DNA of 64,000 nt, taken from the NCBI RefSeq assembly GCF_000970305.1, contig NZ_CP009517.1, forward strand, positions 2,666,001-2,730,000, given 5' to 3'. This document shows, in pieces, positions 58,264-61,320 of this stretch. The translations under genes and the position numbers were made by a program. The stretch is from Methanosarcina barkeri 3 (lineage in GTDB: Archaea; Halobacteriota; Methanosarcinia; Methanosarcinales; Methanosarcinaceae). Under the pieces are notes generated by a model that made no database searches, was not told the origin of the DNA, and worked only from the letters and a program-made list of their open reading frames with translations. Position 1 is the first letter of the stretch. Each line of letters opens with the position of its first letter.

Positions 58264-58776
58264 ATGGATTTCAAGAAATTATTTAGAAAAGATGATAAAG
58301 CAGTTTCCCCGGTTATCGGTGTCATTTTGATGGTTGCAATTACCGTCATCCTTGCCGCCGCAATCGGTTCTTCAGTATTTGGTATGGGACCTGCTAAGTC
58401 TGCACCGCAGGCGAATCTTGAGATTAAAGCAGCTGGAATTACTAATAGTGGTAGTACTAGCGCAGTAGCATCTGTAAAAATCGAACACCTAGGAGGAGAC
58501 ATAATTCGTTTCGAAGACAGTGAAAAAACAAAAGTTACTGCGTCCCTTGAAAACGGTCAGTCTTATACAATCGGGGCTGCAAATAATGCTATTACAGCTA
58601 ATCCTGCCGGTCTTGGCACCTTAGATGTGGGTTCTGTAAAGACGCTCAAATTAGCGGATGGAGCTGGAGTAAACGCTTTTGTAGGAGTCGAACCTAAGTC
58701 TGGTAACACTGTCCATATCAAGATTATCGATGTCCAGACCAATCAGCTTATCTGTATCAAGGATGTAAGGCTTTAA
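58264..58776 (+). CDS. Archaeal type IV pilin
   Basis: 170 aa from ATG 58264, preceded by AGGAGGGAG; upstream in-frame residues are not pilin-like. The N-terminus MDFKKLFRKDDKAVSPVIG with VILMVAITVILAAAIGSSVF is the textbook archaeal pilin domain (DUF1628/PF07790 type): basic leader, class III cleavage before the hydrophobic assembly helix. The remaining 125 residues form a small beta domain. It would be processed by a prepilin peptidase and assembled by a PilB/PilC system that is not in this window. The three pilin-like genes across the divergent spacer may be minor subunits. Confidence 0.88.
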   Translation: MDFKKLFRKDDKAVSPVIGVILMVAITVILAAAIGSSVFGMGPAKSAPQANLEIKAAGITNSGSTSAVASVKIEHLGGDIIRFEDSEKTKVTASLENGQSYTIGAANNAITANPAGLGTLDVGSVKTLKLADGAGVNAFVGVEPKSGNTVHIKIIDVQTNQLICIKDVRL

Positions 58777-58967
58777 AAACAAGTTTAAGTACCTCAAAAA
58801 GGCACTTTTCCTTTTTTTACTTAATTTGTTTTAATCTTGAACTCGTTCTTCATTTTCGATTTTTGTCATATGGCTTTTACCTGTTTTAACTTTAATACTG
58901 CTTAGGAATATACTAATAGAATCTATCTCTAAACTAATTTTATTTTCATACTCAAAAAGAAAAAAAG
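58777..58967. other. Spacer after the pilin gene
   Basis: AT-rich with T-rich runs (CCTTTTTTTACTT at about 58809) that could end the pilin transcript. No gene. Confidence 0.4.
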
Positions 58968-59037
58968 AATCGAAGGGGAACTCTAATCCTCAACCTGCTA
59001 ATTACGAGTCAACCTCTATACCGCTAACTATGACGGC
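58968..59037 (-). pseudogene. tRNA-Thr-like relic
   Basis: Read on the minus strand, this stretch aligns along its whole length with tRNA-Thr at 59951-60022 (for example GCCGTCATAGTTAGCGGTAT versus GCCGTCGTGGCTTAGCGGTA, and a shared CGTAAT around the anticodon). The acceptor 3' strand and T arm are corrupted, so it should not fold. The 60 bp beyond its 5' end also resemble the flank of the real gene. Confidence 0.8.
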
Positions 59038-59146
59038 AAATCTACAGGGAAAATAAGAAGACTTAAAACCCCGATTAAAAGTTCGATTATTTTATTCTTT
59101 AGGGCTTTGTTTGTAATTTTATGGCTCAAAACGTTTGTATTGGCTA

Positions 59147-59449
59147 TCAGTCTTTATTCACTTCATTACAGGTGTTCCATCTGTTATAGGAGATATATGA
59201 CTCACATTCAGTGTTACATCCCCCTGTAGCCAGAAGTCCAAAAGTACACCTGTCAATCTGAATATGTTTAGGTCTACTGCTATCGTTATTCACAGGCTCA
59301 TACCAGTACTTATGATAAATACAATCATTCGTTACGTGACTTTGTATTATTTTTTGGGTTTTTGAATGATTGAAGCCGTTAAATAAGGAAAATAATGATA
59401 AAGTTTGAGAATTTAAAAGGATGTTAGAAAATAGTTCTTTTATACTCAT
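59147..59449 (-). CDS. Small Cys-containing protein of unknown function
   Basis: 100 aa from ATG 59449, with GGGGGG 7-12 nt upstream; upstream codons in frame are ignored. No signal peptide or transmembrane segment. The N-terminal half is helical (IKELFSNILLNSQTLSLFSL). The C-terminal half holds the cysteines (DCIYHKYWYEP, RCTFGLLATGGCNTECESYI, NTCNEV). The leader-plus-Cys-rich-core look recalls precursor peptides, but no modifying enzyme is adjacent. It sits between the tRNA-Thr gene and its relic. Confidence 0.5.
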   Translation of the reverse strand: MSIKELFSNILLNSQTLSLFSLFNGFNHSKTQKIIQSHVTNDCIYHKYWYEPVNNDSSRPKHIQIDRCTFGLLATGGCNTECESYISYNRWNTCNEVNKD

Positions 59450-59950
59450 TATATACCCCCCTTTTAATTTAAGAAACGCAACATATAAAAAAATTACCAT
59501 GTGTAAACACATAAGAAAAACATGTTTTCTACTCCTAACTAAGAACGTTATTCTGTGCCATCAATTATTATAGAACATGCTAACATTCAGGCCTTCAATC
59601 ATGTATGGAATCTGGTTTCAAATCAATATTTTGGAGAACTATCGAAAAATAAAGTAATTTTCATTGATTTTCGTTAACCGAATAATCATGAAATTAAGTT
59701 TCTAATTTACTGATCAAAGAAAAAAAGATGCTTGTGAATACTTTAAATTAGAGTTCTATCGCCAAAAGATGAAAACAGGAAAGAAAGTCTCCTGCTTTTC
59801 CGATGAGCATGGTTCCATTTTCATCATAATAATTATCCTTACTCAAAATATCCATAACCAGCGAATTTATTCCTCAAAATCGAATATATAAAGACCTGTA
59901 CTTTATCCCAATCCCAAAAAAGATGATTTGATCCAGAAAAATAAAAAAAG
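59450..59950. other. Spacer between the small Cys protein and tRNA-Thr
   Basis: 500 bp, AT-rich. The stretch after the tRNA 3' end (59938-59949, on the minus strand a T-run CTTTTTTTAT) is a likely terminator of the tRNA. No gene seen. Confidence 0.45.
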
Positions 59951-60022
59951 AGCCGCCGGGGGGACTTGAACCCTCGACCTGCTGATTACGAATCAGCCGC
60001 TATACCGCTAAGCCACGACGGC
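59951..60022 (-). tRNA. tRNA-Thr (anticodon CGU)
   Basis: 72 nt. Acceptor GCCGTCG pairs with CGGCGGC (one G-U), D arm GGCTTAGCGGTATAGC, anticodon stem GCTGA/TCAGC around loop TTCGTAA (anticodon CGT, reads ACG), T arm GAGGGTTCAAGTCCCCC. Discriminator U, as usual for archaeal tRNA-Thr. CCA is not encoded. T-run follows the 3' end. Confidence 0.95.
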
Positions 60023-60166
60023 AAATACACAGAAAGATTGAGCAGACTTAATACATAGATCAAGAATTTAATTATTTCGCTCGGGCGGAGCCATTTGCTT
60101 TTGCAACGCCTGGATAATCCTTACATTATTTAAATAATGCGGCCACCTTTTTAAGGTTTTAGCTTC

Positions 60167-60322
60167 CTTTAAACAATTCTGTCACCCCTTTAAACAATCC
60201 TATCATCCTTTAAACAATCCTATCATCCTTTAAACAATCCTATCATCCTTTAAACAATCCTATCATCCTTTAAACAATCCTATCATCCTTTAAACAATCC
60301 TATCATCCTTTAAACAATCCTG
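60167..60322. repeat. Tandem 20-bp array that overlaps the trm5 stop codon
   Basis: Seven to eight copies of CCTTTAAACAATCCTATCAT. The last copy (to 60322) lies inside the trm5 coding strand: read on the minus strand it is AGG-ATT-GTT-TAA-AGG, the codons for R-I-V, the stop and the following base triplet. The array thus repeats the gene's own end. Confidence 0.92.
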
Positions 60323-61320
60323 GCCTCTATACAGATATTATACTGATGAGGAGCATACGAACGGACTACCCTTTTATCCAGAACCTCGATTTTTCTTCCT
60401 GCTTTTTCCGCAGCTTTCCTTACGAGTTCTATAGAGCTTTCGAAGAGGTCGTCTTCAGGAGTTATTCCATAATAATGGATTATTCCACCGGACTTTGTCA
60501 GGAGAACTGCAGAGTCCAGGAATTCAGAGGCGCTATGAGGCAAATTCATAATCACATGATCGGCACTGCCTGCAAACTTTTTTGCTTCTTCCCTGGCATC
60601 ACCCTCGACTGCTTCAATATTTTTTGCAGAATTGAGAATAATATTTTCTCTGAGATAATACACAGCATCCGGATTTTTATCGATTGCCAGGACTTTTGAA
60701 GGCTTTTTGCTCTTTGCGATCAGAATACTGTAAGGTCCGACGCCTGCAAACATATCGACAACAGTATCCCCTTCCTTAATCCAGGAAAGAATTCTTGAGC
60801 GCTCGGTTGAAAGGCGGGGAGTAAAATAAGCCCGTGCAAGATCGACTTTGTAGCGGCAGCCGTATTCCCTATGAATGGTTTCGGTTCTCATCTCGCCTGC
60901 AATAACCTCAAATTCTCTAACCCGGAATTCTCCGGTAACAGGAGTAAGAGGCTTGAGCACAGTTTTGATATTCGGCTGAGTCTGAAGTAGGGCATCGGCA
61001 ATTCTTGAGGCTTTCTGTTTATCAAGCTCAGGATCTTCCAGCAGGGCGATGTCCCCTATAACTTCATAAGCAGGGCTGAAACCAAGCAGGTTTTCCGGAA
61101 CAGGTTTCTTTTCCTGGAGCTTGAAGTCGAACTCGATAAACTCAATTTCTTCGGGAAAATTTTCAAGCTCATCAGGAGCAGGTTCTCTGCTCAGGGGAAG
61201 GTAAAGAAATGCTTCATCTGAACCTATTTTTACGGAATTATCCAGAATTTCAAGCTCAAGGAGTATTCTTCGTACAGTTTCTCCTTTCTTTTTAGGAACT
61301 TTTATGCACTGCCGTTTCAT
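60310..61320 (-). CDS. trm5: tRNA (guanine37-N1)-methyltransferase Trm5
   Basis: 336 aa. Archaeal Trm5b layout: N-terminal domain 1-70, middle RNA-binding domain with REYGCRYKVDLARAYFTPRLSTER (the conserved R and substrate loop), then Rossmann methyltransferase with VVDMFAGVGPYSILIAK (AdoMet), DKNPDAVYYLRENI, and the NPPY-like motif IMNLPHSASEFLD. It makes m1G37 next to the anticodon, which prevents frameshifting. The stop codon lies inside a tandem repeat. Start ATG at 61320; an upstream ribosome site is weak. Confidence 0.93.
   Translation of the reverse strand: MKRQCIKVPKKKGETVRRILLELEILDNSVKIGSDEAFLYLPLSREPAPDELENFPEEIEFIEFDFKLQEKKPVPENLLGFSPAYEVIGDIALLEDPELDKQKASRIADALLQTQPNIKTVLKPLTPVTGEFRVREFEVIAGEMRTETIHREYGCRYKVDLARAYFTPRLSTERSRILSWIKEGDTVVDMFAGVGPYSILIAKSKKPSKVLAIDKNPDAVYYLRENIILNSAKNIEAVEGDAREEAKKFAGSADHVIMNLPHSASEFLDSAVLLTKSGGIIHYYGITPEDDLFESSIELVRKAAEKAGRKIEVLDKRVVRSYAPHQYNICIEARIV

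Follow-up and report, generated by a model that had tools for sequence, protein, structure and literature searches.

A probable insertion scar at the tRNA-Thr(CGU) gene of Methanosarcina barkeri 3 and the MITE-like repeat within its small gene

Archaeal elements that integrate into tRNA genes (SSV-, pNOB8- and pT26-2-type elements, and attR fragments) share a layout in which the insertion lies between direct repeats of the tRNA gene, one copy remains intact on its own promoter, the copy at the far end is decayed and unoccupied sites exist in relatives. The locus of M. barkeri 3 described here displays each of these features and is a scar of this known kind. It differs from the described elements in that no integrase accompanies it, its cargo is one gene and its repeat comprises the whole tRNA together with ~55 bp of 5' flank. 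The casposons of Methanosarcina presumably represent another case of tRNA-associated insertion, their likeness to the scar being that the genus is the same and that a tRNA gene is used; according to published abstracts they encode cas1, a gene that was not seen at the scar. As described in a review (PMC8371274), the att sites of archaeal tyrosine recombinases are 40-60 bp long with a preference for the 3' end of tRNA genes, and some archaeal att repeats reach outside the tRNA.

The more novel part of the locus is a frame-neutral, MITE-like repeat within the cargo gene. Rickettsia palindromic elements and other MITEs of coding genes are likewise short inverted-repeat elements with an open frame, found in frame within genes of their hosts and retained there. 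The Methanosarcina repeat differs from the Rickettsia elements in being archaeal, in its dimensions (100 bp plus an 8-bp duplication, always 36 codons) and in being found in two host genes only, most copies lying outside long open reading frames. In-frame insertion of the Rickettsia elements is mentioned in a review of MITEs that also lists archaeal examples (PMC10969869); the word Methanosarcina is absent from that review. A search of titles and abstracts retrieved no paper on Methanosarcina MITEs or on inverted repeats with target duplications in this genus.

An intact and a degenerate tRNA-Thr copy around a small gene

The window, that is, the whole 64,000-nt stretch analysed (G000:C1:2666001-2730000), belongs to a host genome of one 4.56-Mb contig, and the relatives with which it was compared are Methanosarcina (30 genomes of the genus). 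ARAGORN recognizes one tRNA in the whole window, a tRNA-Thr(CGU) on the minus strand (59950-60022), which Rfam matches as well (59951-60022, 62.6 bits). With its flanks (59937-60078), this intact gene aligns without large gaps to 58954-59093, on the same strand, where a degenerate tRNA-Thr (58968-59037) is found. The resulting ~140-bp repeat includes the entire tRNA, ~55 bp of 5' flank and ~13 bp of 3' flank. Hence the tRNA-Thr gene and degenerate full-length copy with matching upstream flanks reported in the initial annotation are confirmed, their coordinates being correct to a base or two, and the repeat is longer than was described there, extending into the 3' flank. The relic retains the anticodon letters CGT and is recognized as a tRNA by neither ARAGORN nor Rfam. 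A tRNA-Thr search of the host genome (E <= 0.001) gave matches at the intact copy and the relic alone, and the former is the sole intact, functional-looking copy in this genome. General features common to tRNA genes could in principle create a resemblance by chance or between unrelated tRNA genes; this explanation is extremely improbable here, as the flanks, like the tRNA, match, the relic has kept its CGT and the local alignment score of 103 compares with a maximum of 41 over 500 shuffles of the relic side.

On the right, the scar is flanked by a trm5/TYW2-family tRNA methyltransferase gene (60310-61320, minus strand; Pfam TRM5-TYW2_MTfase, E 5.8e-55). This gene occupies the 5' side of tRNA-Thr in all genus loci compared, whereas the 3' side differs between loci. 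In the window, the 3' neighbour and left flank of the scar is an archaeal type IV pilin gene (58264-58776, plus strand; Pfam Pilin_N, E 5.4e-22), and a pilin cluster lies on this side in seven genomes (G000, the host, and G015, G019, G022, G012, G027 and G028). A 20-bp tandem repeat (60165-60321; 7.8 copies, 96% match) is also present between the tRNA and trm5.

The sole credible gene between the two tRNA copies encodes a 100-aa Cys-containing small protein, hereafter C100 (59147-59449, minus strand; start codon at 59449, stop at 59147-59149). The earlier description of this protein as alone between the copies stands, although part of its gene is a dispersed repeat that had gone unremarked. 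Upstream of C100, conserved stretches (59456-59490, minus strand) with a TATA-like motif (59482-59490) and a G-rich, ribosome-binding-like motif (59456-59461) are shared by all six genomes that carry the gene. Two further upstream stretches (59621-59692 and 59783-59871) match other places in the genus, five in G018 and one each in G006 and G024, and are perhaps other dispersed repeats; a G027 match to 59621-59726, considered as a possible shared spacer, was discarded because it consists, in part at least, of another dispersed repeat, present at these five G018 places.

C100 is a genuine gene of Methanosarcina and a rare one. Of 185 genomes from the order, 6 have it in full or nearly full form. 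It therefore does not belong to the core genome, membership of which would have counted against the proposal of the initial annotation. In the named collection, its matches are in M. spelaei MC-15 and four Methanosarcina MAGs. The gene resides at three or more different genomic places, and since the copies of G008 and G018 lie away from any tRNA-Thr seen, it also moves without the tRNA. Among G000, G015, G019 and G022, the C-terminal half has a dN/dS of 0.09-0.16; the N-terminal part is looser (the G000-G019 ratio of 4.95 derives from few changes), and the frame of the G018 copy is disturbed near its end. The protein has no match in Pfam, NCBIfam, PHROGs, PADLOC or, by sequence, the PDB. The possibility of a phage, plasmid or defence gene was dropped, as 50,697 phage records, 72,556 plasmid records and PADLOC gave no match, and 40 pattern stretches in viral contigs included no confirmed case. 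The AlphaFold2 model (mean pLDDT 43.6) is too low in quality for use. Our guess is a small Cys-containing, perhaps metal-binding protein.

Occupied and empty sites in relatives and the order of events

The order pilin-relic-C100-tRNA-trm5 of the window recurs in G015 and G019. These two genomes and G022 also share the tRNA gene copies that form direct repeats at either end of the insertion. In G022, contig C108 carries pilin, relic and C100, followed by another tRNA-like copy, the third, whose anticodon is CAU, and the intact tRNA-Thr and trm5 are on a separate contig, C96. Because each of these contigs contains one end of a cation-transport ATPase gene, in equal direction, we infer the order relic-C100-CAU copy-ATPase-tRNA-Thr-trm5. 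The CAU copy (L061:2654-2726) derives from tRNA-Thr, although ARAGORN classes it as tRNA-Met. By eye, a pair in its T-stem looks broken, so this copy is probably decaying.

Empty sites, the existence of which the initial annotation had left to be checked, were found in G012, G027 and G028. These genomes have the order pilin-tRNA-trm5 without relic and without C100, with pilin-tRNA spacers of about 220, 1040 and 410 bp, respectively, and the intact tRNA and 5' flank of the window match the three sites at 93-95%. With an empty site in relatives and a gene outside the core genome, the idea of an insertion survives, with an integrase as its putative agent.

We had considered the empty sites as the ancestral state and dropped this interpretation, since a larger tree puts G022 outside the rest. 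Three genes alone left the placement of G022 unsettled; 8965 aligned columns gave (G022,((G000,G015,G019),(G012,G027,G028))), with a support of 94/96 for the seven-genome clade, and rejected the grouping of G022 with the other occupied genomes (p 1.2e-5) as well as with the empty genomes (p 2.1e-5). Both groupings were also rejected by the 5.5-kb hem-pyr stretch alone; the 3.5-kb trm5-side stretch rejected the first of them (occupied genomes, p 0.0005) and did not reject the second (empty genomes, p 0.075). As the gene tree sets G022 outside them, the empty sites are more likely secondary losses, and the insertion is most likely older than the clade and was lost in G012, G027 and G028. A site that is empty in relatives is not necessarily in its ancestral state. 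The dS of C100 between G000 and G022 (0.34) compares with 0.35-0.48 for the neighbouring trm5, lysE-like and TFB genes (the last two names being our own assignments) and would be as expected under vertical descent since the split of these genomes; alternatively, C100 may have been transferred between lineages.

Junctions and mode of entry

The reading that we consider the most probable one, with somewhat better than even confidence, is that the 1-kb stretch originated from an old insertion by incoming DNA carrying C100 and tRNA-Thr, with both endpoints in the tRNA-Thr(CGU) gene. The incoming DNA would have contained C100, with the MITE already inside on arrival, as cargo beside its own copy of tRNA-Thr with a promoter. 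Most likely circular, this DNA would have undergone Campbell-type recombination with the resident tRNA gene before the split of the seven-genome clade. Such an event would leave [resident 3' flank]-tRNA-[incoming 5' flank] at the pilin-side junction and [incoming 3' flank]-tRNA-[resident 5' flank] at the trm5-side junction. The trm5-side copy, retaining the resident promoter, would stay functional and the pilin-side copy would decay. G012, G027 and G028 would later have lost C100 and one tRNA copy, as by recombination between the repeats. The circular form of the incoming DNA, the losses at the empty sites and a site-specific integrase as the agent are all presumed; homologous recombination would give an equal layout.

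The flanks can be compared with this expectation, because the relatives make resident and incoming flanks of a tRNA insertion scar distinguishable. On the left, the pilin-relic spacer of G022 resembles the pilin-tRNA spacers of the empty sites up to the 3' end of the tRNA, both in G028 (score 85, shuffle maximum 32, 0/300) and in G012 (score 42, shuffle maximum 26, 0/300). For G000, G015 and G019, none of six comparisons with the empty sites detected similarity in the relic-proximal part of the spacer, so that the exact left junction depends on G022; the first 40-90 bp past the pilin gene do match the empty sites in these three genomes. Turning to the inner flanks, that on the 3' side of the intact tRNA of the window contains no detectable copy of the G012 or G028 3' flank beyond an A/T run, and at two sites the relic 5' flanks have states found outside the clade instead of those common to all seven clade tRNAs. 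A tree uniting the relics with the clade tRNAs is disfavoured (AU p 0.028, 140 columns; an exploratory test run after the two sites had been noticed), and monophyly of the relics has a support of 63/0. Judged from these alignments, the outer flanks are resident (the left one from G022 only) and the inner flanks appear non-resident, which corresponds to the outcome of a Campbell-type event inside the tRNA gene.

The initial annotation had offered a simple tandem duplication as its alternative. In this case, the chromosomal tRNA-Thr transcription unit would have been duplicated, C100 would have been inserted between the copies and one of them would have decayed. Such a history would agree with a repeat that includes the promoter-side flank and the full tRNA, as in a plain segmental duplication, with the lack of an integrase and with the occurrence of C100 elsewhere without tRNA-Thr, and the age of the relic could fit an ancient event. 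We nevertheless judge it less likely than a tRNA-flanked insertion, and unlikely overall: two events are needed at one spot, the 3' flank of the intact tRNA contains no detectable copy of the G012 or G028 flank beyond an A/T run, and the relic 5' flanks do not have the states of the clade tRNA flanks, so any duplication must predate the clade. In addition, tRNA fragments on the 3' side of tRNA-Thr in other species suggest a general insertion site.

These fragments were found in a comparison of 29 loci, that is, the window and 28 others with a resident tRNA-Thr(CGU). An extra tRNA-Thr-like sequence in the same orientation is present on the 3' side of the tRNA in at least nine of them (G000, G015, G019, G022, counted across its two contigs, G018, G011, with two, G020, G013 and G014), a lower bound because some contigs stop shortly past the tRNA; none was detected on the trm5 side at E <= 1e-4 in the 29 loci. 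The G020 and G013 fragments are 43 nt long and span exactly the anticodon loop to the 3' end, which is the classical att form. The 3' side of tRNA-Thr(CGU) thus looks like a recurrent insertion site. The islands read on this side have ordinary cargo, which by eye includes a sensor kinase-like ORF (G020 and G014) and a transporter-like ORF (G013). In G018 (L064:7483-18304), a 10.7-kb stretch between two tRNA-Thr(CGU) copies contains transposases and metabolic genes, likewise named by eye, with no integrase seen.

An integrase was sought around the locus itself. Tyrosine integrases (PF00589) are absent from the 3' side of the tRNA near the locus in 30 genomes, and the nearest ones, in G009 (8.5 kb) and G007 (14-20 kb), are both on the trm5 side. 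None lies beside C100, where the initial annotation had suggested looking, and a G018 ORF adjacent to C100 (L063:8556-8927), considered as the N-terminal part of an integrase, was dropped as unsupported by Pfam and PHROGs. The window insertion carries no replication or mobility gene, only C100, which matches neither Pfam nor PHROGs. Moreover, its ~140-bp repeat is longer than the 40-60 bp or so of an att core in the 3' half of a tRNA and reaches the 5' flank of the tRNA, and is therefore not a normal att repeat. With no 3'-side integrase and a repeat that includes the 5' flank, we infer rather than demonstrate integrase-driven entry. The originally proposed scar of an integrated element is thus partly supported: the evidence favours an old tRNA-flanked insertion but gives no support for an integrase close to C100 or to the locus, for an att repeat of the normal type or for empty sites as the ancestral state.

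The same observations lend some weight to integrase-free entry, by homologous recombination with foreign Methanosarcina DNA in which C100 adjoined tRNA-Thr. A repeat far longer than an att core and the lack of a nearby recombinase would be expected in this case, and the first relic of G022 with its 5' flank has its closest match (87%) outside the clade, in the G021 tRNA locus. However, the common homology amounts to only about 140 bp, and the att-like fragments of G020 and G013 at the same gene suggest integrase use, so that we regard this route as rather improbable.

The MITE-like repeat within C100

Codons 3-38 of C100 correspond to a 100-bp dispersed repeat and an 8-bp target duplication, the match to the repeat covering about residues 5-38. 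In the window, the single copy of this MITE-like repeat (59337-59431, minus strand) matches positions 5-99 of the 100-position model R1 (E 1e-15) and has a decayed 8-bp duplication. The model, built from 18 copies, detects the repeat (E <= 0.01) in 26 of the 30 genus genomes, with up to 113 matches per genome. C100 had also been considered as a dispersed family over its whole length, an interpretation that was abandoned since its many weak matches are to the 100-bp repeat and not to the gene. The consensus ends, GAGACTTTTT and AAAAAGTCTC, form terminal inverted repeats; single copies fold into long hairpins, and RNAalifold on the repeat alignment found no consensus pair.

Copies of this family include the one of the window (59337-59431) and those at L132-L151 and L190-L229. 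For the count of target duplications, L138, the second L139 match and the six C100 copies, reported apart, were removed from 67 matches. In the remaining 59 copies, the mean flank match over 8 bp is 0.555, as compared with 0.372 after permutation (maximum 0.439 of 300), and 10 have a perfect 8-bp duplication, against 0.19 expected; of the lengths from 3 to 12, only 8 bp stands out. Among the C100 copies, the two 8-bp flanks agree at 8/8 positions in G008, 7/8 in G015, 6/8 in G022 and G019 and 4/8 in G000; the G018 copy scores 3/8 as counted and reads as identical if a small end deletion is allowed.

Since 100 + 8 = 108 bp, each insertion adds 36 codons and is frame-neutral. Insert-free homologues of C100 (a 55-aa protein in G018:C17 and another in G007:C29), although of weak similarity (34-37%), have their first conserved Cys at residue 7, exactly 36 residues before its position in C100 (residue 43). 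We consider it moderately probable that this Methanosarcina MITE, having an open frame of its own, can enter genes without breaking them, that in C100 it came to form the N-terminal third of a small protein which is conserved and has spread between species, and that it is the equivalent, in archaea, of the Rickettsia palindromic elements. With insert-free homologues that differ at the exact predicted position, C100 provides a clear and testable example of coding sequence derived from a mobile repeat in archaea.

Outside C100, 32 of 61 copies are open in some frame, and one of the 61 (G011:C53) lies in an ORF with at least 100 codons on both sides, a count made on short fetched flanks. This second host gene is a repeat-rich ORF of 419 aa (L052:4233-5492) with the MITE in frame and flanks that match at 6/8 positions.
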